Shown in pieces: positions 6,110-18,065 of a DNA stretch of 27,498 bases (position 1 is the stretch's first letter; each line of letters begins with the position of its first letter). The notes beneath the pieces are model-generated. The model saw nothing but the letters and a program-made list of their open reading frames with translations. It made no database searches and had not been told where the DNA came from. The stretch spans positions 1 to 27,498 of the IMG/VR virus record IMGVR_UViG_3300028735_000029. The stretch is one strand, 5' to 3'. Position numbers and translations under genes: made by a program. This DNA comes from a virus.

Positions 6110-8050
6110 TTAACGCAAACGACGGCCGAGACTGGCCACCACGGTAGCGACTTTAGCGCCGAACCCGCTATCACCGGAGCTTTCAGACGCTTCCCCGGGT
6201 TGTTCTTGAGATGCCGCCGTATGAGCGGGCATACCCATAGAAGACAAACGCTCCTCGACGGGGTTGGGGGAACTACCCGCAGTTCCCACGTAGTTCATTT
6301 CGAGCACGGCTTTAGCCAACCCTTCTTGAACTTCAGCGGGTTTTTCGAGGATCTCACAAGCCTTAGCAAAAAGGACATTGTGATATTGGTCAGAGGAGGC
6401 CTTAAACGCATTATGGAGCAACACATCGGGGTTGCGGACCCCGGCGGAACTCAAAGCATTAAAGAGGGTCTCCTTCAAGGGATTAACTGCTCCCGTAAAG
6501 AACCCACGGGTCAAACCAACCGCAGCAGTAGCTAGAGCAGCCTTAAATCGTTCTTGGTACTCTTTCTGAGCCGAGGCCATAGCAGCACGTTCTTCAGCCA
6601 ACTTTTGGTCAATTTGCTGCTGTACATGCCGATCCAGGTTTACCCTTGATGAAAGAGCTTTGAATCCCATCTCACGAAGAGTGTTTACTACACCCACGTG
6701 CTTTGCTGAAGCCAGGACGGCCCGCCCAAAAGAGCTATCATCGAAGATGTCTTGATGCTTGGACTCGCTCTTGCGAGCCATAGCAACCGGGGTACCGGCG
6801 TAATACGCCGTCCAAACAGGAGAACCAGCTACGCTTGAGCTATACACTACGTCTAATTTGGACGGAGCGTCTTCACTACTATCATCCAGGTTGTCTAAAG
6901 CATCGACCTCAGTGTCTAAAGTTGAGTCAGATTCGGACTCGTCTCCACCATCCTCAGCCGGCATAACTTCGAGATCTGAGTTAGACTCGTCCTCCTCAGA
7001 GTCGGGATCGACTAAGGTGGAGGCACAAACAGGGCAAGCCTTAAGATCGTCAGACTCATAAATAACGTGAGCACCGCACTTAGCAGAAGAGCACACTTGG
7101 TAGTTCACTTCTACGGCACTAGCATGGATTACGCCAATGCGCTCCGCTTGATACAAGGCAATAGCTTCATCTTTAGAAGAAGCGGCCACAACCACAGGCT
7201 CGTTAGGATCTTCCTCAGATTCATCCTCCTCGGACTCGTCAGATTCATCCTCTTCGGACTCGTCAGATTCATCTTCCTCGGACTCGTCAGATTCATCTTC
7301 CTCGGACTCGTCAGATTCATCCTCCTCGGACTCGTCGCTAGATTCTGATTCACCCATCTCATCAGACTCATCAGATTCGTCTTCCTCGGACTCGCCAGAT
7401 TCATCTTCCTCGGACTCGTCAGATTCATCTTCCTCGGACTCGTCGCTAGATTCTGATTCACCCATCTCATCAGACTCGTCCTCGTCAGACTCAGACTCGT
7501 CTTCGGATTCATCATCAGACTCATCCCCATCAGACTCAGACTCAGACTCATCTTTGGATTCATCATCAGAGAGGTCATCAGAAGATTCAGACTCAGCATC
7601 AGAGTCATCAGCTTCTTCCACCTCATCCACTGACTCATCATCTTCATCGCTTTCGCTGTCCTCGGCATCGTCACATGACTGAGACACAGGTGTGGTACAC
7701 ACTGGACAATGCTTCACCAGGTCTTCGGAGTCGTAAACAACGTGGGCCCCACAACCTGCCTCGCACTTAAAGTAATTGACCTCGCGTCCTTTAGTGCTAG
7801 AGTTGGATTCAAATTCCAGCCCTTTAATTAGCTCGGGCGATTCCTCGAGGTCCAGATCACCCGTCTTGGGATTGAACAGCTCAGAAATATTGGAATTAGC
7901 GGTTGTAACGAAAGATAAGCTACGGGCTTTATCAATGTACGCAGAAACTCTTTTACCGACCGCAGCCATCTTATACCGGTTGATAGCTTCGTCTTTCGAG
8001 TTTCCAACGCTCACGATGCCGTAGAATGGCACAGCTTTGCGGTCAGACAT
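6110..8050 (-). CDS. Putative prohead core/scaffold protein with duplicated zinc modules and an acidic Ser/Asp/Glu repeat
   Basis: A 646-residue protein. A first module (about residues 15-125) has SKDEAINRYK and then EVNYFKCEAGCGAHVVYDSE with a later CPVC. A long disordered stretch of Asp, Glu and Ser follows (roughly 125-285), including repeated DESEEDES octamers. A second module repeats the first: SKDEAIALYQ, EVNYQVCSSAKCGAHVIYES, CPVC. After another acidic linker comes a helical C-terminal domain with VQQQIDQKLAEERAAMASAQ and a basic end (SLGRRLR). The start at 8050 follows AGGAG; an upstream in-frame GTG at 8095 has poor spacing. Its place before the decoration-like and capsid genes suggests a core or scaffold role like T4 gp22, but the zinc modules are not part of a standard scaffold, so the role is inferred. 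Confidence 0.75.
   Translation of the reverse strand: MSDRKAVPFYGIVSVGNSKDEAINRYKMAAVGKRVSAYIDKARSLSFVTTANSNISELFNPKTGDLDLEESPELIKGLEFESNSSTKGREVNYFKCEAGCGAHVVYDSEDLVKHCPVCTTPVSQSCDDAEDSESDEDDESVDEVEEADDSDAESESSDDLSDDESKDESESESDGDESDDESEDESESDEDESDEMGESESSDESEEDESDESEEDESGESEEDESDESDEMGESESSDESEEDESDESEEDESDESEEDESDESEEDESDESEEDESEEDPNEPVVVAASSKDEAIALYQAERIGVIHASAVEVNYQVCSSAKCGAHVIYESDDLKACPVCASTLVDPDSEEDESNSDLEVMPAEDGGDESESDSTLDTEVDALDNLDDSSEDAPSKLDVVYSSSVAGSPVWTAYYAGTPVAMARKSESKHQDIFDDSSFGRAVLASAKHVGVVNTLREMGFKALSSRVNLDRHVQQQIDQKLAEERAAMASAQKEYQERFKAALATAAVGLTRGFFTGAVNPLKETLFNALSSAGVRNPDVLLHNAFKASSDQYHNVLFAKACEILEKPAEVQEGLAKAVLEMNYVGTAGSSPNPVEERLSSMGMPAHTAASQEQPGEASESSGDSGFGAKVATVVASLGRRLR
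7218..7477 (-). repeat. 24-bp coding repeats and a 46-bp duplication
   Basis: Tandem 24-bp units encode the octamer DESEEDES. Five copies lie at about 7218-7340 and more at about 7380-7445. A 46-bp segment that includes the MGESESS codons is present as exact copies at 7324-7369 and 7432-7477, 108 bp apart. Copies differ at a few third positions. The array is in frame, so copy-number changes by slippage or recombination keep the reading frame open. Confidence 0.9.
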
Positions 8051-8661: not shown

Positions 8662-8823
8662 CTATATAAAGTTCAACTTATCACTACAGCTAAGGTTTGG
8701 TGATGAGCTTCGTTGTTCCATATATTCCCAAGTTCTTCGAGTGTGGGTCGGGAGCATACGACGTGCTACGGTGAGCATCGCTGTCCAAAGATGTTCCAGC
8801 GTAGGGGATACTAAGATTTTCAT
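8662..8823 (-). CDS. Small ORF with the shared MK-type N-terminus
   Basis: A 53-codon reading in what would otherwise be an empty 200-base gap. It starts MKILVSPTLEHLWTAML, which matches the N-terminal tag of neighbouring genes, and ends 11 bases before the ATG at 8650. There is no clear ribosome site near its ATG (the nearest AAGAGA is about 16 bases away). The C-terminal half (RRTWEYMEQRSSSPNLS) is unremarkable. The tag match and the snug fit in the gap are the only support. Confidence 0.4.
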   Translation of the reverse strand: MKILVSPTLEHLWTAMLTVARRMLPTHTRRTWEYMEQRSSSPNLSCSDKLNFI

Positions 8824-8854
8824 GGTTATTAGTACAAAATCTCTTAGGTCGAAT

Positions 8855-9040
8855 CTACTGATATTCAGCAGTAGTACCTAAATTTAGTTGGTTCTTCGAG
8901 TCCCGAATCATAGAACTAGACACAGCTGCACAATTAACAATAGCAGCTGGACCAAAACCAGCTACATAAGCCTGAGTATTATAGCCAAGGTTTGGAGTGT
9001 TGAGCATCGTTTCGAGTATTCCAGACTCGACGCTGTTCAT
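8855..9040 (-). CDS. Small unknown ORF overlapping the end of a tagged gene
   Basis: A 61-residue reading. The visible sequence, MNSVESGILETMLNTPNLGY followed by a VAGFGPAAIVNCAAVSSSMI stretch, is moderately hydrophobic and has a natural amino-acid mix. It overlaps the last 62 bases of the upstream gene in another frame. The ribosome site is weak (GAAGC directly before the ATG). A TTG five codons upstream is also possible. No family is recognised. Without this reading the stretch from 8824 to 8978 would be empty. Confidence 0.4.
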   Translation of the reverse strand: MNSVESGILETMLNTPNLGYNTQAYVAGFGPAAIVNCAAVSSSMIRDSKNQLNLGTTAEYQ

Positions 9041-9641
9041 GCTTCGACATCTCAACCCTAGTAGTTAGCATTTTCAGGTCATACGGTATATGGCCCAGCC
9101 GCGTCTGAGGTGACACCGGCCCGCCGGTATCAACGTCAATGGTATTGAGATTTTTAAGCACCCTAAGTACATTTTCATCGAAGGAGTGAACAGTAAGACC
9201 ATGCTCCAAGGTCTTCAGCAGGGAAGTAATAATCTCTTCCCTAATACCTAGGTCTAAATGATCGTCGTCCACCCACGCACGATAAATGCCTAAAATATCC
9301 CTAACCTTGTGCCTATCGTCAACCACTAGATCAAAATAACCTAGGGGCTTTGCACTTCTATTACGCATTAGATCATCAGATCGAAAGATCAAGTAACGGA
9401 GAACGTTGTTAGGCAAGGTTACGGTGTCATGAGAGATACGACGCCCACCTCGCAGCAAGTAGTTATAGTTAAAGAACACGGTGGTAGCCATGTTAGTACG
9501 ACCAAAGTGGAAGATCGGTACCGGTGACTTGTCCAGGTCTTCTAAGTCAGGCTCGTAGTCATTTTCTACACTTTTGTCTTGGACCCGACGGACGTTCTCA
9601 AGATCAGCTAGGATGGAACTCATTGAAATCCAAAGTTTCAT
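8979..9641 (-). CDS. Unknown protein with the MK-type N-terminal tag
   Basis: A 220-residue protein starting MKLWISMSSILADLENV, one of the clearest examples of the shared tag. The body is charged and mostly helical with aromatic patches: MATTVFFNYNYLLRGGRRIS, VLRYLIFRSDDLMRNR and YRAWVDDDHLDLGIREEIIT. No catalytic motif is obvious and I recognise no family. Its ATG overlaps the stop of the upstream gene as ATGA, so translation is likely coupled. Confidence 0.8.
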   Translation of the reverse strand: MKLWISMSSILADLENVRRVQDKSVENDYEPDLEDLDKSPVPIFHFGRTNMATTVFFNYNYLLRGGRRISHDTVTLPNNVLRYLIFRSDDLMRNRSAKPLGYFDLVVDDRHKVRDILGIYRAWVDDDHLDLGIREEIITSLLKTLEHGLTVHSFDENVLRVLKNLNTIDVDTGGPVSPQTRLGHIPYDLKMLTTRVEMSKHEQRRVWNTRNDAQHSKPWL

Positions 9642-9922
9642 TTCTGCCCTTCTATGGACCGTGTAAAGGAGTAGGGGTACTCGTGCTCAAGTCTGCGTAA
9701 CTCAGCCGTAAACTTTTCGGCGTCGGTAATTTTACTGAGACGCTCAAAGTCCCTTATTTTCTTTTTCCATACCTTTGGATTGAACATATTGGGTGAGTAC
9801 GCGCTACGCAAGAAGGCTAAATGACGATCTATAAGATAACGAGCGAGAACCCCATGCTTCATATTTAGGGGTAGTAGGCCGTACTTAGAGGTAGAGGCCT
9901 GGGCGTGTATAAAAATTTTCAT
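9638..9922 (-). CDS. Small basic protein with the MK-type N-terminal tag
   Basis: A 94-residue protein starting MKIFIHAQASTSKYGLLPLN. A longer reading from 9979 exists, but it overlaps the upstream gene. I prefer the ATG at 9922: GAGG lies five bases upstream, it begins just after the preceding stop, and it exposes the shared tag. The rest is basic and helical, with LIDRHLAFLRSAYSPNMF and KVWKKKIRDFERLSKI. A closing helix contains AELRRLEHEYPYSF. DNA or protein binding is possible, but no family is recognised. Confidence 0.72.
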   Translation of the reverse strand: MKIFIHAQASTSKYGLLPLNMKHGVLARYLIDRHLAFLRSAYSPNMFNPKVWKKKIRDFERLSKITDAEKFTAELRRLEHEYPYSFTRSIEGQK

Positions 9923-9938
9923 AATAGCCTCAGGGGGC

Positions 9939-10235
9939 CTACGAAGTAATGCTATAGATTGTTCTATGACCTTGCTCATTCCGTAGGGTCATACGAACAG
10001 TGGTGTTTCCTTTTACATAGTAGAAATCATCTAGACCTGTATTCTGAGGATTGATCCGCCGGAATTTTATAGACTTCAATAGAGCAAAAAACAAATCTAC
10101 CTTAGCGTCATCTTCTTGAGAATTTGACACAAACGATCCGTTCGAGTCAAGAGTCAAACCGGCTCTACTCAGAGCTTCAGCAACCTGAGGGTCTAACTTG
10201 TCCCACATTCGGCTAGTACTTATCCAGATCTTCAC
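9939..10235 (-). CDS. Small protein with the MK-type N-terminal tag, GTG start
   Basis: A 98-residue protein starting (GTG) MKIWISTSRMWDKLDPQVAE. AAGG lies six bases before the GTG, which supports this start. A helical first half (DPQVAEALSRAGLTL) is followed by VDLFFALLKSIKFRRINPQN and a strand-rich end with FYYVKGNTTVRMTLRNEQG. No family is recognised. A Leu/Pro/Val-type motif, DP.VAEAL, also occurs in the next tagged gene upstream (PPDVAEALKKAI). The two may therefore be distant relatives, or both may carry the same local helix after the tag. Confidence 0.75.
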   Translation of the reverse strand: MKIWISTSRMWDKLDPQVAEALSRAGLTLDSNGSFVSNSQEDDAKVDLFFALLKSIKFRRINPQNTGLDDFYYVKGNTTVRMTLRNEQGHRTIYSITS

Positions 10236-10329
10236 GAAACACCTTCTATGACAGAACTAAGTTGTAGAACACTCACGGCAAACGGAGGGCTTAAACTCAT
10301 GCAAGCCCAAGCTGTCCGGCACCCCTACT

Positions 10330-10608
10330 CTAATTGGCCAGGGCCCACTTAGTAAGTATCTTCTTCACAGCGCGCGCTTCGTCACCTTTCCAAGACTTTA
10401 AGTTGGAAAGCAGATACGCTATCTGCATGGCCAGCCCATGTGATCCATGCTCATCAGCAGCGCGCGTCATCGCATTAGCATACGTTCGCGCAGCGGGGTT
10501 ACCGGATTCTTGCGCTGCCTTTATTGCTTTTTTGAGAGCCTCAGCCACGTCAGGTGGCATATAAGCACTGAAGTCAAAGTTAGAGGCGAGAGATATGAAG
10601 ATTTTCAT
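10330..10608 (-). CDS. Small Ala-rich helical protein with the MK-type N-terminal tag
   Basis: A 92-residue protein starting MKIFISLASNFDFSAYMPPD. After the tag it is almost entirely helical and Ala/Lys-rich: VAEALKKAIKAAQESGNPAA, RTYANAMTRAADEHG and LLSNLKSWKGDEARAVKKIL. AAGGA lies nine bases before the ATG. The tag ends at a Pro-Pro before the first helix, so tag and body look like separate units. No known family. The 94 bases after its stop contain a 6-bp hairpin (GGGCTT/AAGCCC) and only very short readings. Confidence 0.78.
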   Translation of the reverse strand: MKIFISLASNFDFSAYMPPDVAEALKKAIKAAQESGNPAARTYANAMTRAADEHGSHGLAMQIAYLLSNLKSWKGDEARAVKKILTKWALAN

Positions 10609-10650
10609 GAGTGCTCTTCCTTATGCTACTTGAACATTAGTTGGACCAAT

Positions 10651-11022
10651 TTAGCCCTGGATAATTCGTATTGAAGATCCGGCTACAGTAAGCTCGGAGG
10701 ACAGGTTCCCAGTAACGCTTACATAAGATGCACCTAGGCTGACCTTAAAGGTAAAGCTAGAGTCAGTTCTTTCTAGCTCTTGAACCTTAAGACCTTCGCG
10801 GTTAGCCGCACGCTTGAGCTCAAAGATAACTTTCTCTAAAGGCAAGCCATTGAGATTGTCTAGATCTATTGACTTCATCATCAAGAAATTCCCCGAGAAC
10901 AGGGTAACATCTTGCTTAGAACCAAACTTTGACACCAAGGCTTGCTCAAACTTATAAAAATTGCTCACTACCGGAAAAATGTTACCGGAAGGCATAGATA
11001 AAGAAACATAAATTGTGGACAT
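10651..11022 (-). CDS. Unknown alpha/beta protein with a variant N-terminal tag
   Basis: A 123-residue protein starting MSTIYVSLSMPSGNIFPVVS. The tag here begins MSTIYVSLS instead of MK but keeps the hydrophobic-Ser-x-Ser pattern. The body is mixed: FYKFEQALVSKFG, KVIFELKRAANREGLKVQEL, and a beta-hairpin-like end with SSFTFKVSLGASYVSVTGNL. The ribosome site is weak (GAAAG nine bases upstream). No family is recognised. Confidence 0.75.
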   Translation of the reverse strand: MSTIYVSLSMPSGNIFPVVSNFYKFEQALVSKFGSKQDVTLFSGNFLMMKSIDLDNLNGLPLEKVIFELKRAANREGLKVQELERTDSSFTFKVSLGASYVSVTGNLSSELTVAGSSIRIIQG

Positions 11023-11075
11023 GCTAAGTACTTTCTATACAGGAGGATTAACAACACCGGTTGAGCACCCCAGAC

Positions 11076-11288
11076 CTAAGGTCTTACCGGAGATCTTGCT
11101 AGATCTTTTCTTGAACCTCGCAGATGAATCGGACCACACGAATGAAGCTGGATATGATAAACATCAAGCCCTTGGGAAGATAAACCAACCCAAAATTTCG
11201 CGCTATTTCTCAAATTACAAACTATGCCATTCCCACTTTTACCTGAGTCAAAGATAACGATTTTATTGTTATCCGGCAAATTTTGCAT
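11076..11288 (-). CDS. Doubtful small ORF in a poorly coding stretch
   Basis: A 70-residue reading, MQNLPDNNKIVIFDSGKSGN and onward. The first 45 residues look protein-like. The last 25 (for example RGSRKDLARSPVRP) look like out-of-frame translation. No ribosome site precedes it. In the same stretch a second frame offers a 21-codon reading (MFIISSFIRVV..., 11099-11164) after AAGGG. A third frame stays open almost to the next gene. The region may hold a small gene, a decayed gene or a frameshift. I list the longest reading with low confidence. Confidence 0.3.
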   Translation of the reverse strand: MQNLPDNNKIVIFDSGKSGNGIVCNLRNSAKFWVGLSSQGLDVYHIQLHSCGPIHLRGSRKDLARSPVRP

Positions 11289-11317
11289 TTCAGATCTAGT
11301 TGGGTCGAAGCTATCAC

Positions 11318-11608
11318 CTAGTAAACGTCTAAGATTTTACGCCTAGTATATGACTTATGCCAAGTTCGTAAAAGCTTCTTCAAAGTAGAGGAGTTCTTAG
11401 TTGCCTTAGTTGCTTCTTGTTTGCACCTAGGACAGCTAGTTCTTCCGGCCGTAGCTAACGGCTGTACCCTTCCAGTATATATTAACTGATGCTTATGACA
11501 TTTAATCTTGTACTTACGTTCCGGAGTTTGCTTTAGCAAGGTATATCTAGCTGGACCTTGAGCTTTATCTACTCTTTCCTGCCAATCTCTTAGAGTAAGG
11601 GACTTCAT
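11318..11608 (-). CDS. Small basic protein with a putative zinc-binding treble-clef motif
   Basis: A 96-residue, Lys/Arg-rich protein. The centre reads KYKIKCHKHQLIYTGRVQPL, then TAGRTSCPRCKQEATKA. This C-x-x-H ... C-x-x-C pattern resembles the treble-clef zinc repeat (often seen as C..HG.F ... GCP.C) found in phage and homing-endonuclease-associated DNA-binding proteins. Flanking helices are basic (STLKKLLRTWHKSYTRRKIL). No nuclease catalytic motif is visible, so I call it a putative DNA- or RNA-binding protein. No clear ribosome site precedes the ATG. It does not carry the MK-type tag beyond its first two residues. Confidence 0.65.
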   Translation of the reverse strand: MKSLTLRDWQERVDKAQGPARYTLLKQTPERKYKIKCHKHQLIYTGRVQPLATAGRTSCPRCKQEATKATKNSSTLKKLLRTWHKSYTRRKILDVY

Positions 11609-11635
11609 GAGCCATTTTTGTACGAGTGGTAAGGG

Positions 11636-11702
11636 AGCCCAATTATCCCTAGTGAACAGTGCAAGTGCTCACAGGCTGGCCGGCCTTCAGAACAATTGGG
11701 CT
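11636..11702 (-). ncRNA. Candidate structured RNA between the protease gene and the next gene
   Basis: On the minus strand AGCCCAATT (11694-11702) pairs with AATTGGGCT (11636-11644) in a perfect 9-bp closing stem. Inside, GTGAGCA and TGTTCAC form a 7-bp stem with the 7-base loop CTTGCAC. It can be lengthened by CCT/AGG across a bulged T. A GGCCGGCC palindrome occupies the other arm. The element starts 11 bases after the protease stop and lacks a T-run, so it is not an ordinary terminator. It does not fold as a tRNA, because it has no T-arm or D-arm. Function unknown. Confidence 0.45.
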
Positions 11703-11712
11703 TTACTACTCT

Positions 11713-12459
11713 TTACAATACACTCGGATTCATGACATGAGGACCAATGGCTATTTTAAAGGCGGGGTCCGCTACTACTGAGGTTTCGAAACCGACAATA
11801 TCGTGACATTGACGGTAGGCCAAGCGTCCATCAGGAAGGGCATAGGGGCGCCGGCGAAGGAAAGTATGGTCACAAGTTGATGTACTACCAAACTTTGTTT
11901 GTCCTACGGTCTTACCGCAAATGGAGCACGTGTATGACTTGTAGTAGAAGCCTACTGAGTAGGCATTATTCTCTCCGCTTAGGATAGAATTGACTAACAG
12001 GGGATCTTTGGACCTATCGTATGCCATCAGCTCAACTAACTTATAGTACCGGCCATTACCAAACCTACGAATAGGACGAATAAATACATCTAAAATAATG
12101 CCCTTGGCCTTTGTGTAGTCCCGGTTATCATGTTCTAGATGGCACGGCTTTCCTCTAAATGTCTTAAAGGCCTGCATACCTAACTCGGGGTTAAACTTTA
12201 GCATCTCTTTGAGTGTAACTGAGTCCCCGTTAGTATTGGGGAGGTCACTGTTCATCACCGGAACGGGGACAAGAACGTAATCTCTAATATCTGGACTCAA
12301 GTTATAAACCTTGGCAGCGAAGGGGAGCCAGACATTGGCTTCTATGCTACGAGAAGGATCATCGGATAAGCGTTGAACAACATCCTCAACCTTATACTTG
12401 TTAAGTTCTATAGCTGCCCCGCTCAAACCAAACGAGTGCGAAACGAATTCTTTGTCCAT
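11713..12459 (-). CDS. Prohead (capsid maturation) serine protease with a zinc-binding insert
   Basis: A 248-residue protein matching the phage prohead protease pattern. A hydrophobic strand is followed by MNSDLPNTNGDSVTLKEML. Next come KTFRGKPCHLEHDNRDYTKA with the likely catalytic His (107 or 110), a strand LVELMAYDRSKDPLLVNSIL, and SGENNAYSVGF with the likely nucleophile Ser168. Residues 178-198 (CSICGKTV...STCDH) form a zinc-knuckle-like C-x-x-C ... C-x-H insert directly after the active-site strand. Such enzymes cleave scaffold, core and capsid proteins inside the prohead before packaging. The start at 12459 has a modest TAGG site. It sits among the genes that carry the shared N-terminal tag. 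Confidence 0.82.
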   Translation of the reverse strand: MDKEFVSHSFGLSGAAIELNKYKVEDVVQRLSDDPSRSIEANVWLPFAAKVYNLSPDIRDYVLVPVPVMNSDLPNTNGDSVTLKEMLKFNPELGMQAFKTFRGKPCHLEHDNRDYTKAKGIILDVFIRPIRRFGNGRYYKLVELMAYDRSKDPLLVNSILSGENNAYSVGFYYKSYTCSICGKTVGQTKFGSTSTCDHTFLRRRPYALPDGRLAYRQCHDIVGFETSVVADPAFKIAIGPHVMNPSVL

Positions 12460-12513
12460 GGTTAAACCTAGTTAAAGTTGGGTAGGGTCTTGCTAATATG
12501 CCGTGCCTGGGCG

Positions 12514-12789
12514 TTACTGGCCACCATCAGGTAGACCGCCATATTGCCCGACTACATTTACGATGTTAGTTCTAGGCAGGTCTAGCCGTAGCCGAGTTTT
12601 AGTTGGGACGCCCAGGGGACTCATTGTATCGGGTCCGAGGTCCGGTACTGTCCTCAAAGAGGAAAAAATTTTACGGTAGGGGCTTGTTGGATGCAACTCA
12701 TGATACTGGAGTTTTTGGTTATCTGATAATGACTTGTACCATGATATGGCCTTACCTAACTTCAAGTTCGAGCTAACGATAAGTTTCAT
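12514..12789 (-). CDS. Small protein with the MK-type N-terminal tag
   Basis: A 91-residue protein starting MKLIVSSNLKLGKAISWYKS. I chose the ATG at 12789: AAGGA lies six bases upstream and this start exposes the tag. A longer reading to 12882 overlaps the topoisomerase gene and lacks a ribosome site. The tag is followed by SLSDNQKLQYHELHPTSPYR, a compact W/Y/H-rich helix pair. The rest is Pro/Gly-rich and probably extended, ending GQYGGLPDGGQ. No enzyme motif is visible. Confidence 0.75.
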   Translation of the reverse strand: MKLIVSSNLKLGKAISWYKSLSDNQKLQYHELHPTSPYRKIFSSLRTVPDLGPDTMSPLGVPTKTRLRLDLPRTNIVNVVGQYGGLPDGGQ

Positions 12790-12838
12790 CAGGTTTCCTT
12801 GGTCAGTGGACCGCGCGACGCTTTGGCAAGGTAGCAGT

Positions 12839-14467
12839 TTACTTAGGTAACCACTTGGGACGACGAAGGCCCAAACTTTCAAAGTAATCTGCTATAGGAG
12901 CAGGATCGATATAACTCCTTATAGCGGTAGCGGAAGTGACCTTTTCGCCATTTCTATGGTGTAGCGCTTCCCCGATCTTGAGCGCCTCTTCCTTAAACCA
13001 ACGCTCAACCGCAGACTGCTTGAGAAACGAATTTTTCTTGAAAGGAGCTTTGGCTAAAATAGCCAGAGCTAGTTTCGTACCCGCGATCTGACGGAACTTA
13101 TGCGGGGTAAGTTGAATGCCCAAGCTCTTAAGGTAAGCTGAAACCATCTGACGAGTTATGAGGTGCCGGCGGTACGTGAACACTGCAGCCGTTTTATCTT
13201 TACCAGCTACTAGCTCCTTTATGATCTCAGCAACCTTCTTGGAAATAGCATCGTTTAACTTATACTCTGTATACTGATTAGTACCCTTCTTACCCGTATA
13301 GTCAAACACTATCTTAGTGGGTAGGATCCGCAAGTGGCCAACTTGCAAGGTGCTCAAACCATAGGTAGGCTCACCTGCTGTTTGATTGCCCTTGCCTCCT
13401 ATTCGGGCCGAAGTCTTGTAAAGTAACTCAACCATTGCGGCTAAAATTTGATCCTCGCTACCCTTTTTATTGAGATCGACCCGCCACTTAGCCACATGCT
13501 CATCTTCAGCTTTGAGGAAGTCCTGAACTAGCGAATGCCGAGCAGCCTTGTTGCCAGATAAGAAAGTGGTAGTGCGATACCTAGCAAAGTGATTAACCCC
13601 GCTTAGAACATAAGTATTGTCTAACTCGGGATTATATTTGGGATTCATAACCACAGTACCAAACGGTACTTTATCAAGCATTCGACCTTCTGCTGTATAG
13701 GCCTTGCCGGACTCATCCATCAAACCGCCCGTAAACCCTCTGGGTAAGTTATTGGGCATACCCAAGCCCTCTAAGTGAGAGCGTATCAGATCAATTGAAA
13801 CCAGTGGTGTTTTCTGCTTACGAACAAACCGGAAGATCTCATGCTTAACTGAGCGATTTAAGATCTTAGCGTATTTAGCGTACTCAGCAAATACTTCGGG
13901 ATGGGCTGCTCGGGCAGCCTGAGCTTCTTTAGGAGTCAAGAAATATTCGTCGGTCTTGTTAGTTAATTTTCTAACCAAAGGTTTAATTTTCGCGGCAGCT
14001 TCTTTGAAGGTCATGCCTTCAATTTCTATGTCGTCTTCCGTGGTGAATATAGCCGTTAAAGCCGGGTTATTTAGAATTCGTACATTTTTCTCGATCTTAT
14101 TCCAAGCTGCGTCCGAGTCATTATACAAGTTCTGAGCACACGCTTTCAAGAACTCCAACCGTTCGTGGTCAATAGATACGTCACGATCAAATGAAGCCCG
14201 AGCACCTCTTAAAATCGAGCCTAACTCTACCGCGTCTTCATGGCTAATCTTTTTAGTAAGCAAGAATTTATTGAAGTATTTCGTAACTTGCTTATAAATA
14301 CCGTGCTGCTTCAGCAGGTCGTTTGACAGAAGGATCTTACCTCGAAGCTCAGGGTAAAACTCTTTAATGTCATTTCCATTTACTTCTAAGATCATGAGTA
14401 CAAGTACGGTTAAGAAAGCGTCTATGCTTTCTGTTGAGGTACTAAGACTGGTAAAATAAATTTTCAT
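12839..14467 (-). CDS. DNA topoisomerase IB with a long N-terminal extension
   Basis: A 542-residue protein. The C-terminal half holds a poxvirus/bacterial-type topoisomerase IB core. TSARIGGKGN has Arg355; TYGLSTLQVGHL follows; YTGKKG has Lys393/394. TPHKFRQIAGTKLALAIL has Arg459, and ATAIRSYIDP has the probable nucleophile Tyr519. Spacings between these residues fit the family. The enzyme would nick one strand through a 3'-phosphotyrosine and relax supercoils without ATP. The first 270 residues are mostly helical and larger than in the poxvirus enzyme. The N-terminus is the shared tag (MKIYFTSLSTS). AAGG lies six bases before the ATG, and the gene begins four bases after the ligase stop. 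A tyrosine recombinase is less likely because of the TYGLSTL motif. Confidence 0.85.
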   Translation of the reverse strand: MKIYFTSLSTSTESIDAFLTVLVLMILEVNGNDIKEFYPELRGKILLSNDLLKQHGIYKQVTKYFNKFLLTKKISHEDAVELGSILRGARASFDRDVSIDHERLEFLKACAQNLYNDSDAAWNKIEKNVRILNNPALTAIFTTEDDIEIEGMTFKEAAAKIKPLVRKLTNKTDEYFLTPKEAQAARAAHPEVFAEYAKYAKILNRSVKHEIFRFVRKQKTPLVSIDLIRSHLEGLGMPNNLPRGFTGGLMDESGKAYTAEGRMLDKVPFGTVVMNPKYNPELDNTYVLSGVNHFARYRTTTFLSGNKAARHSLVQDFLKAEDEHVAKWRVDLNKKGSEDQILAAMVELLYKTSARIGGKGNQTAGEPTYGLSTLQVGHLRILPTKIVFDYTGKKGTNQYTEYKLNDAISKKVAEIIKELVAGKDKTAAVFTYRRHLITRQMVSAYLKSLGIQLTPHKFRQIAGTKLALAILAKAPFKKNSFLKQSAVERWFKEEALKIGEALHHRNGEKVTSATAIRSYIDPAPIADYFESLGLRRPKWLPK

Positions 14468-14470
14468 AGG

Positions 14471-16438
14471 TTACCTTAACTTGAACTTACGTAGAAACTC
14501 GTCCGCAGTCATAATCTTTATACCTTGAGCCAAGGCTTTTTTCAGCTTACTCGACCCTGAGTCCCTATCTTTAACTAAAAGTATGGTAGTTTTAGTTGAT
14601 ACACCGGAACCCACCACACCACCGTTGGAAATTATGGTTGCTTCTAAATCCCTGTCCCTAAAACCTGTAAAGGCAACCACTTGCCCACTTAATACAGAGC
14701 TACGTTTTTTCACCTTAGTCGGAAGAACGGGCTTGATACTTACTAGCTTAATCCACTTGAGGAATTTAGGAAAAGCAGCTGCAAACTGCTTGGCGAGTTG
14801 GTTGAAGCCAGGAACGGACCGAACACGGTTCTCTATCTCACCGGTAGTTAAGTCACCCCAGGTCATTAGATTAGGGTACTTATCAACCAAGGGTTGCAGT
14901 CGGCGAGTACCTATACCAACACCAAAGATGCCACTCGCGTCCATAAGGGTAGCTAATTCAACTTCACGAGTTTTTGACTGAATGGCTGTGTACCACTTCT
15001 GCGCCAACGTATCTTTTACACCCGGTATGCTTAAAAAGTCAGAGGGAGTAGCCCTTAGGATCTTGGGTAAGGTATCATACCCATGCTCCATGAGCTTCTC
15101 AATCGTATTCAACCTCAAAAAATCAACGCCTACGGTAGAGAAGAACGAAGCTATGCGCTTGGCCTTAACTAGATCTGTCTTAGTTGTGAGGTATATGTCT
15201 ATTCCGGTACGCCCGTACTTGTACTCAACAGATGGCATTTGAGGTCGAGTACCCTTAACTACCTCTATAACGTGAGGTATAACATCGCCGGATCTGATTA
15301 TCTTTATGACCGCACCCGGGCCAATAGGTAGAACAGGCAAGCCCTTACCTTTATCCTTGCTCCTATATCCGTGCTCAATGAAATAAGCATTATGGCCGGT
15401 GGCCCATTCAACTGTCACACCTGAGAGTTTGACAGGATCGATACGAATACGGGGCTTGAGGGCACCGTGTTTGCTCTCCTCCCACACCACTTCTTTAACT
15501 TTAACTAGAGCAGTGTTTTCTTCTTGAGCTGCCTTAAACGCAACTGCATAGGGTGGAGCAGTTCCGCTAGTTGGGCGCTTATTAACTCTATCCTCTTCAA
15601 TGACTAGGCCATCAATCTCATACTTTGACTTTGACTTTCGGGACTTTAGAATAGCCTGAAGTTTGGACGAGCTTAGGGTTGGGTAGACCTTGTAGGGCAC
15701 TACGTTGAAGCCAAACTTTTTCAGCAAGGCCAAAGCGGCAGAAGGTTTGTAGCGAGGCTCTATAATCTCATAGGCAACTACATGGACGTGAGGGATGGCC
15801 TCATGGACCGTTCTTTTAGTAAGAGCCCCCGCAACTAGGTTGCGAGGGTTAGCGTACTTTTCCTTAAACAGCCTATCGAAGTTATGAGTAGGCATTATCA
15901 CTTCGGCCCGAACAGCAAACTTGCCAGATACGGGAACGGTTGGAGGTATTTCAGAAGTTAAATGAGGACCTAGCGAAGTTACATCCTCACCAGTTAACCG
16001 GTCGCCACGGCGAAATAATCCAGAAAGAGTACCGTTATTGTAGACGATCTCTAGGCTATTCCCGTCCTCCTTATCTGAAACTACATACGGCCCCCGGTGC
16101 TTTGTGAGCCACGCATCAGCAGTTTCAGGCTTTATCTTATCCAAGGAAAACAGCTGAAAAGGTAGCGCAACCTTACGAGAACCCTTAACTGGGGCCCCCA
16201 CTTTCTGTAGAAAAGGGTGCGCAGGGTTACGAGCCTCCAGTTCCTCTTTCAGGGCATCAAAAGCCCTATCTGAAAGTGGGCTAGTTCCCGAGTTGTAGTA
16301 TTTGTCCGAGCATTGCTTAAGAATAGAAACAAGGTCTTTAGTGTAGAGGAGCTTGGCTAAGCCTACAGGATCCCCCTCAATTCTCTTAATGTCTCGAGCG
16401 CTTAATTTAACCGAAGCCAGGCTAATCAAGAGTTTCAT
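14471..16438 (-). CDS. ligA: NAD+-dependent DNA ligase lacking the zinc finger
   Basis: A 655-residue ligase. The Ia-like NAD+-binding part has YYNSGTSPLSDRAFDALKEE. The adenylation motif is KEDG with Lys123. Further motifs are FAVRAEVIMP, YANPRNLVAGAL and YEIDGLVIEE. The OB fold has IGPGAVIKIIRSGDVIPHVI. Helix-hairpin-helix repeats and a C-terminal BRCT domain (VVAFTGFRDRDLEATIISNG) follow. The enzyme seals nicks after adenylation by NAD+. The four-Cys zinc finger that normally follows the OB fold is absent: the protein has a single cysteine (Cys43). It begins with the shared tag MKLLISLASVK. Its ATG overlaps the stop of the 50-residue ORF as ATGA and has no ribosome site of its own, which implies coupled translation. 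Confidence 0.95.
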   Translation of the reverse strand: MKLLISLASVKLSARDIKRIEGDPVGLAKLLYTKDLVSILKQCSDKYYNSGTSPLSDRAFDALKEELEARNPAHPFLQKVGAPVKGSRKVALPFQLFSLDKIKPETADAWLTKHRGPYVVSDKEDGNSLEIVYNNGTLSGLFRRGDRLTGEDVTSLGPHLTSEIPPTVPVSGKFAVRAEVIMPTHNFDRLFKEKYANPRNLVAGALTKRTVHEAIPHVHVVAYEIIEPRYKPSAALALLKKFGFNVVPYKVYPTLSSSKLQAILKSRKSKSKYEIDGLVIEEDRVNKRPTSGTAPPYAVAFKAAQEENTALVKVKEVVWEESKHGALKPRIRIDPVKLSGVTVEWATGHNAYFIEHGYRSKDKGKGLPVLPIGPGAVIKIIRSGDVIPHVIEVVKGTRPQMPSVEYKYGRTGIDIYLTTKTDLVKAKRIASFFSTVGVDFLRLNTIEKLMEHGYDTLPKILRATPSDFLSIPGVKDTLAQKWYTAIQSKTREVELATLMDASGIFGVGIGTRRLQPLVDKYPNLMTWGDLTTGEIENRVRSVPGFNQLAKQFAAAFPKFLKWIKLVSIKPVLPTKVKKRSSVLSGQVVAFTGFRDRDLEATIISNGGVVGSGVSTKTTILLVKDRDSGSSKLKKALAQGIKIMTADEFLRKFKLR

Positions 16439-16599: not shown

Positions 16600-17424
16600 T
16601 TAGATACGAGTCAATAGGTAGCGAGTCCAAGCTAAATGCTGTGTGTACACGTTGGACTTCATGAGCATAGGGCCTACAGTAGAGCCCAGGGGGAGGTCAA
16701 ACGACTTAGCAAGGCTGCGTTTCATGGAGACAAAAGCTTTGAAGAAGTCTTTGACAACATCTGTTCGGAACGCTAACTCAGGCTTAGGCAACTTAATATC
16801 GATTGAAACTGAAGCTGTTAGTACAAAGTAGCCATCAGGTGAAATTAGCGCCCTGTAGTCCAGGTCAACGTACCTATCCCCGGGCAAGGTCACGGCCGAT
16901 CCTACCCTAACCATGTGAGGCTCAGAGGTAACCTTGATGTGCTCGGCGCTATTATCCGGACGTCCCTCTAAAATACGAGCTAGATTTTTCTTGAAACCAG
17001 CTTGAATCCTAGATTTATTTTCGTTGAAAAACTTCTCTAACTGCTTCTTAGTAAAATAGGGCTTAGGCTTTTGGAGAAGAAAAGCAGAGGGCGCTATAGA
17101 TTCTCCACTATTAATGCGCGCGATCACGTCGGCATCGTTTGGTTTTTTCAAAGGAGGTTCTGTTCGGCTTCCCTGGATCCTAATAGGCGTGTCGTTCTTG
17201 CCCACTCGAAGTTTTTTAGACCGAGATATGAGCTTTTCGTATTGAGCTTCGGTAAGTTTAAACTTGGGAGATCGTTTAGCTGGATCCTCTACAACATAGA
17301 TACTTCTAGGTGTCTTAATTACGTAGAAGTCCTCTCCGGGTTTCAGAATAAGTTCAAAACGAGATGAAGTGATCTTCACCCCGCGCTGTGCAGCGTAACG
17401 ATAGTGTTCAGTATCTGAAGTCAT
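16600..17424 (-). CDS. Unknown protein
   Basis: A 274-residue protein with no family that I recognise. The N-terminal part is strand-rich with RFELILKPGEDFYVIKTPRS. The middle holds KPYFTKKQLEKFFNENKSRI and the C-terminal part has DRYVDLDYRALISPDGYFVL and SVSIDIKLPKPELAF. It ends with a helical AFVSMKRSLAKSFDLP stretch. The ATG overlaps the stop of the upstream gene (ATGA). It lies between the portal group and the ligase and does not carry the shared N-terminal tag. A structural or DNA-linked role cannot be told apart from sequence alone. Confidence 0.78.
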   Translation of the reverse strand: MTSDTEHYRYAAQRGVKITSSRFELILKPGEDFYVIKTPRSIYVVEDPAKRSPKFKLTEAQYEKLISRSKKLRVGKNDTPIRIQGSRTEPPLKKPNDADVIARINSGESIAPSAFLLQKPKPYFTKKQLEKFFNENKSRIQAGFKKNLARILEGRPDNSAEHIKVTSEPHMVRVGSAVTLPGDRYVDLDYRALISPDGYFVLTASVSIDIKLPKPELAFRTDVVKDFFKAFVSMKRSLAKSFDLPLGSTVGPMLMKSNVYTQHLAWTRYLLTRI

Positions 17425-18065
17425 TTTGCTACTCTAAAGTAAGGTCTTAGGCGACGGTTGCGCTTTAGCAAACTTGGCTTAGCCGAAGCTACAGCGAGCT
17501 CAGCGTCACGCTTAGCTTCCTTAGTAATTAAATCATCCGACTGTTTTAGGATACGAGCGATATGCTCAGGTGTCATTTTGACTAAATGCGTTATGTCCTC
17601 TACCGAGGCAAAGTATTTTTCAAATTCACGGGCAGGAAAATTATCTAAAGGCGTGTAATTATCTCCAAGCCTCAAATGGGTAAGGTCAATGACCAGATGG
17701 TTTGCCTTGATAACAGCGTGCTGTATCTGCTGCCTAACCTTGGCCTCACCCACGTTCTTAATAGCCTCCTCCAACCTTGGAGCAGCATTACGAAGGGGCT
17801 TTAGAAAAACCTTGCCTAGAAGAACCTGTGCGTCTATGTCATGGGTAACTAAGAACTTATATAAATCTCGGACAATGCTAGTGTGGTAGCTATCCGCCTG
17901 GGCAGCGCTGCGAAGTGCTGACGCAGCGCGAGGATTTTTCTCCAAAAACTTTCGATACGCCTGAGCCAAAGACATTGAGTTATCTTCGGCCTCATCCATC
18001 TTAGAAAGTTTGCCCGCACTTAAACTATCAAGAGGAAGGGTGAGCACTATCTTTCTTCGTTTCAT
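17421..18065 (-). CDS. Unknown helical protein after the portal
   Basis: A 214-residue basic, helical protein. It starts MKRRKIVLTLPLDSLSAGKL, which may be a longer variant of the hydrophobic-Ser N-terminal pattern. Helices such as AQAYRKFLEKNPRAASALRS, TSIVRDLYKFLVTH and RQQIQHAVIKANHLVI follow. The C-terminus is basic (LLKRNRRLRPYFRVAK). Its ATG overlaps the portal stop (ATGA), so the two are probably made together. Genes directly after a portal often encode head-assembly or ejection proteins, but no family motif is visible here. Confidence 0.78.
   Translation of the reverse strand: MKRRKIVLTLPLDSLSAGKLSKMDEAEDNSMSLAQAYRKFLEKNPRAASALRSAAQADSYHTSIVRDLYKFLVTHDIDAQVLLGKVFLKPLRNAAPRLEEAIKNVGEAKVRQQIQHAVIKANHLVIDLTHLRLGDNYTPLDNFPAREFEKYFASVEDITHLVKMTPEHIARILKQSDDLITKEAKRDAELAVASAKPSLLKRNRRLRPYFRVAK

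Follow-up and report, generated by a model that had tools for sequence, protein, structure and literature searches.

A short N-terminal tag on unrelated proteins of PaBG/Lu11-family jumbo phages is probably an address into the virus shell

The capsid-targeting sequence of the T4 internal proteins IPII and IPIII begins with MK. Encapsulin cargo-loading peptides are short motifs of hydrophobic and small residues for loading into an HK97-fold shell and are usually located at the C-terminus. In T4, the internal proteins destined for injection reach the core of the head by means of about 10 N-terminal residues (PMC9958956, PMC5694885). The N-terminus of P1 DarB steers this anti-restriction protein, and also a reporter, into the head (PMC9024508). 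The propeptides of phiKZ and SPN3US are N-terminal parts of jumbo phage head cargo and are thought to target the prohead. They comprise 20–254 residues and are cut at AxE (SPN3US) or SxE (phiKZ) (PMC10052503, PMC5694885). For polyvalent proteins with ART, GNAT and nucleotide-signal enzymes, phage injection is proposed (PMC7824862).

The window analysed here is a 27,498-base virus record (IMGVR_UViG_3300028735_000029, positions 1 to 27,498). It encodes a terminase, a portal, a major capsid protein (MCP), a head protease and a tail sheath, all PaBG/Lu11-like. A sequence-only reading had described a shared N-terminal peptide on about nine proteins. All nine ORFs and their N-termini are present as written, and the protease gene lies among the tagged genes, as stated there. 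The same tag occurs on 8–14 genes of two close relatives. The sister contig G001 (191 kb), whose terminase is 76% identical to that of the window, has 14 tagged starts in two clusters at 126–136 kb and 43–50 kb; G016 (protease 80% identical) has about eight, for example MSKLFVSLS, MKLQISLST, MKLFIALSA and MKLYISLSA. The window features are as follows.

17421–18065, minus strand: 214-aa protein, borderline tag MKRRKIVLTLPL; G001 orthologue MKIKVFMSTS (E 1e-36)
14471–16438, minus strand: NAD-dependent DNA ligase, tag MKLLISLAS (PHROG 3869, E 1.5e-137)
12839–14467, minus strand: topoisomerase IB-type enzyme, tag MKIYFTSLS (Topoisom_I Pfam match)
12514–12789, minus strand: 91-aa protein, tag MKLIVSSNL, then a W[WFY]xxLxxxQKxxY..HPxSxY motif
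11713–12459, minus strand: head maturation protease, untagged, within the tag cluster (PHROG 18299, E 9e-84)
10651–11022, minus strand: 123-aa protein, tag variant MSTIYVSLS, like the MSK- prefix of G016 (MSKLFVSLS)
10330–10608, minus strand: 92-aa protein, tag MKIFISLAS; homologue at G001 133391–134617 (tblastn E 4e-36)
9939–10235, minus strand: 98-aa protein, GTG start, tag MKIWISTS
9638–9922, minus strand: 94-aa protein, weaker tag MKIFIHAQAS
8979–9641, minus strand: 220-aa protein, tag MKLWISMSS; G001 homologue tagged MKISVSLSA (E 2e-14)
8662–8823, minus strand: doubtful 53-aa ORF, MKILVSPTL, short and without a good SD

Eight of the nine proteins start with MK[IL]x[IV]S[LMS][AS] or an evident variation of it; the ORF starting at 8823 may be no gene. 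Behind the tag, the proteins are unrelated, in agreement with the earlier description: no homologous pair was detected among 28 in the window, 91 in G001 and 28 in G016. The serine codons indeed vary among the tagged genes (AGC, AGT, TCT, TCA, TCC and TCG). Because codons differ between genes, the tag is not a recent DNA duplication. In the ligase, residues 1–10 are an add-on ahead of the ligase domain Ia, and the PaBG orthologue starts past the tag. The AF2 model of the ligase, weak as a whole (41), has low confidence for residues 1–10 and a first helix at residue 14. The topoisomerase model was uninformative (mean pLDDT 48), and a scan for topoisomerase relatives found nothing beyond those already known. 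In the G001 homologue of the 92-aa protein, an extra domain sits between the tag and the homologous part. Its inner stretch LFGLSSNFNF still resembles the tag of the window protein.

The shared tag is almost certainly real. A comparison with shuffled N-termini, suggested in the sequence-only reading, revealed an enrichment: the strict pattern MK[IL]x[IVF][STH] is present in 8 of the 33 window N-termini (8823 counted) versus a shuffle mean of 0.04. None of 20,000 shuffles reached 8 matches, and shuffles with residue 2 fixed had a mean of 0.28. The pattern was derived from the same N-termini on which it was scored; therefore, independent replication weighs more. For the window, G001 and G016 together, a similar pattern occurs at 15 of 272 called N-termini versus 2 of 1208 internal methionines. 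In the Lu11/PaBG clade, a generalised pattern occurs at 49 of 2331 N-termini versus 23 of 11152 internal methionines (p 2e-21). A blinder all-versus-all test of N-termini gave a weak signal in two cases, the window on its own (3 pairs against 0.4) and G001 (36 against 22), and a strong one for G016. Compared with shuffles, the all-versus-all similarity was very strong in the MKLNAAxRL genomes (z 10–41) and moderate in Lu11 and Motura (z about 7). PaBG, NCTB and Alexandra had no excess in this blind test; dialects there are thus weak or few. Controls were phiKZ and T4 only. PhiKZ had no excess, and a twofold excess in T4 looks partly due to homing-endonuclease paralogues.

Farther relatives were collected via the head protease and the capsid protein. 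These PaBG/Lu11/Motura-type jumbo myoviruses have shared N-termini in other dialects, each lineage with its own. Lu11 uses MKIQLAVAxA on nine genes and Motura MEIQAAxRLxA on about eleven. MKLNAAxRLLA is present on about 18–19 genes each in G004 and G007, and MKINAAxRLKA in G012, G013 and G014. G010 has MKLTAHY, and PaBG and Alexandra have LIKINLxEA. Dialect tags were recovered even when the profile was built without the tested genome.

Orthologues keep the body, and their N-terminus follows the dialect of the local phage. This outcome is expected from a partner that differs between phages. The HPYD family is the clearest switching case, with bodies matching at E 1e-28 to 1e-40: it starts with MKLYISLSA in G016 (MKLYISLSAVPLS), MRIQLAVAA in Lu11 (MRIQLAVAAVPLS) and MELMVSLSA in Alexandra (MELMVSLSALPPS). 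Topoisomerase orthologues begin with MKIYFTSLS in the window, MNVHIAVAAAS in Lu11, MLITLSRVA in NCTB and MNPLLVTAS in G014. In ligases beyond the window clade, the tag is mostly absent.

Like the T4 capsid-targeting sequence, the tag is a short N-terminal segment common to otherwise unrelated proteins. T4 has it on few proteins and removes it by gp21, whereas 8–20 unrelated proteins per phage carry the tag here, in dialects, each of which differs by inspection from the T4 sequence. The P1 DarB signal requires 10–30 residues and has no consensus among Dar proteins of the unrelated P1; here, the motif is shared. By sequence tests, the tag falls outside the T4 family; functionally, it would be like the T4 sequence or the DarB signal. 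Polyvalent proteins (Iyer et al. 2017, cited in PMC7824862) share ART, GNAT and nucleotide-signal enzymes with the tagged cargo. They are large and multidomain, and the consulted passages of PMC7824862 do not mention an N-terminal tag. No description of the tag was found in the freely accessible papers searched.

Tagged genes cluster around the capsid-protease block in three genomes. Within 25 kb of the protease, 18 of 68 genes are tagged in G004 (versus 1 of 271 beyond), 16 of 67 in G007 (versus 2 of 151) and 8 of 63 in Motura (versus 1 of 239), with Fisher p values of 6e-13, 1e-7 and 2e-5. The same 25-kb test was not significant for Lu11 and G001. Lu11 tags are instead located near or after terminase and portal. 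The second G001 cluster adjoins a homologue of the virion protein gp202 of PaBG (PMC7412058 Table 1). This 2741-aa homologue of the helicase-like gp202 (G001 33912–42137) starts with MLLTLNLNP. Late expression alone could account for the gene neighbourhood of the tags.

Tagged proteins with a recognisable domain include Acb1, PcfJ, NUDIX, SprT-like, GNAT and T7 0.7-like kinase proteins, besides the NAD ligase and the topoisomerase IB. By these domain assignments, the recognisable proteins are similar to factors for takeover, counter-defence and repair. One has a weak ART-PolyVal-like match that fails the cut-off (E 1.6e-4). The anti-CBASS Acb1 homologue of G001 (43386–43895; L008:5386–5895) is tagged MKVMVSLSS. 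The solved Acb1 in the PDB, from its residue 2 onwards, matches the query only from residue 22, so the tag has been added ahead of the domain. More Acb1 homologues are encoded close to the protease in PaBG, L024 and L033. Motura (L127:12975–16908) has three tagged, mutually homologous proteins with R..SxS..ExE-like motifs. Their assignment as ADP-ribosyltransferases, suggestive by eye, was rejected, with no Pfam or PDB match. Besides the tag, another element, W[WFY]xxLxxxQKxxYLxxHPxSKYA, recurs in 18 proteins across dialects, mostly right behind the tag (e.g., window 12514–12789, L095:16845–18808, L071:6881–7570 and L134:8274–10004). No Pfam family accounts for it, and the WW-motif protein at G004 37777 had no match among phages.

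One known virion protein has a related tag. PaBG gp83, present in virions as band 9 (PMC7412058 Table 1), is encoded by an ORF starting MLIKINLLEAV, in the LIKINL dialect. The mass listed in PMC7412058 is identical to the monoisotopic value for this ORF, and gp76 and gp80 have the same ratio of listed to average mass. Five proteins, all from PaBG or Alexandra, have IK[IL][NS]L at the N-terminus, and the motif occurs at three other sites in 834,000 residues; for this motif, picked after being seen, the N-terminal placement has a chance probability of about 2e-8. That gp83 is the only such virion protein, with its dialect recognised afterwards, counts against a targeting function.

A capsid-targeting signal is nevertheless our best explanation of the tag, with a probability of roughly 0.6. 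Packaging is the best-supported reading because of the clustering with head genes, the cargo resembling injected effectors, the co-changing dialects and the tagged PaBG virion protein. The tag would be an N-terminal signal of about 8–12 residues on late proteins. It would bind a component that the phage encodes and that lies within the assembling head, either the scaffold or core, the protease or the inner capsid surface, and tagged proteins would be trapped when the head closes. With the DNA, they would enter the next host for immediate takeover, counter-defence and repair of the incoming DNA. Tag and receptor would evolve together, so that every lineage has a dialect of its own. No receptor was found. 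A possible one is a candidate scaffold or core protein encoded upstream of the head genes:

6110–8050, minus strand: acidic DESE-repeat protein, PaBG gp82 homologue, directly before a structural gene and the MCP

The MCP N-terminus was rejected as a copy of the tag (tag-profile scores −4 to −0.4). A Sec or Tat signal peptide was also rejected; by inspection, the tag has a short alternating stretch of small and hydrophobic residues and no long hydrophobic core. A more specific proposal is tentative, at somewhat less than even odds: a lineage-specific, uncleaved address code with a co-evolving head receptor, by which 10–20 effectors per virion, including Acb1 and repair enzymes, are delivered with the genome.

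Instead of a virion signal, the tag may sort proteins to the site of replication or assembly or dock them to a common chaperone or partner. The DNA enzymes ligase and topoisomerase are among the tagged proteins, and dialects are compatible with any co-evolving partner. Sorting or docking is nonetheless unlikely, given the Acb1 and ART-like cargo, the clustering with head genes and the presence of gp83 in PaBG virions. The tag is also absent from those core structural and replication genes of the window that lie beyond the tag cluster.

Targeting to the head followed by T4-style removal through the head protease had been part of the sequence-only reading. Its packaging part agrees with our best explanation; its cleavage part found no support. 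The protease gene inside the tag cluster and the processing of PaBG virion proteins (PMC7412058) are in line with removal. Against it, no LxE/IxE, AxE/SxE or GE motif was enriched in residues 6–30 of the window-type tagged proteins, and tags of all dialects are poor in acidic residues. We regard removal as improbable, although a cut of some different specificity may occur. A weak excess of [VLI]xA[ST] stems mainly from MKLNAAxRL-type tags, where it largely reflects the tag sequence.

MK starts are common among phage genes, but a residue or codon bias that favours translation initiation, or N-terminal cassettes of mobile DNA, are very improbable explanations considering the excess with residue 2 kept (8 versus 0.28), the differing codons, the variation of dialects between phages and the lack of an excess in phiKZ.

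Within the PaBG/Lu11 family, the tag is probably an address into the virus shell, for entering the next host with the DNA. If such an N-terminal code can be read, the proteins that a jumbo phage sends in with its DNA could be picked out by sequence alone; for most of them, no function is known at present. The code would open the co-evolution of receptor and tag to testing and could serve, like that of T4, as a general tool for loading proteins. The code would also explain how jumbo phages could face CBASS and other defences ahead of gene expression.
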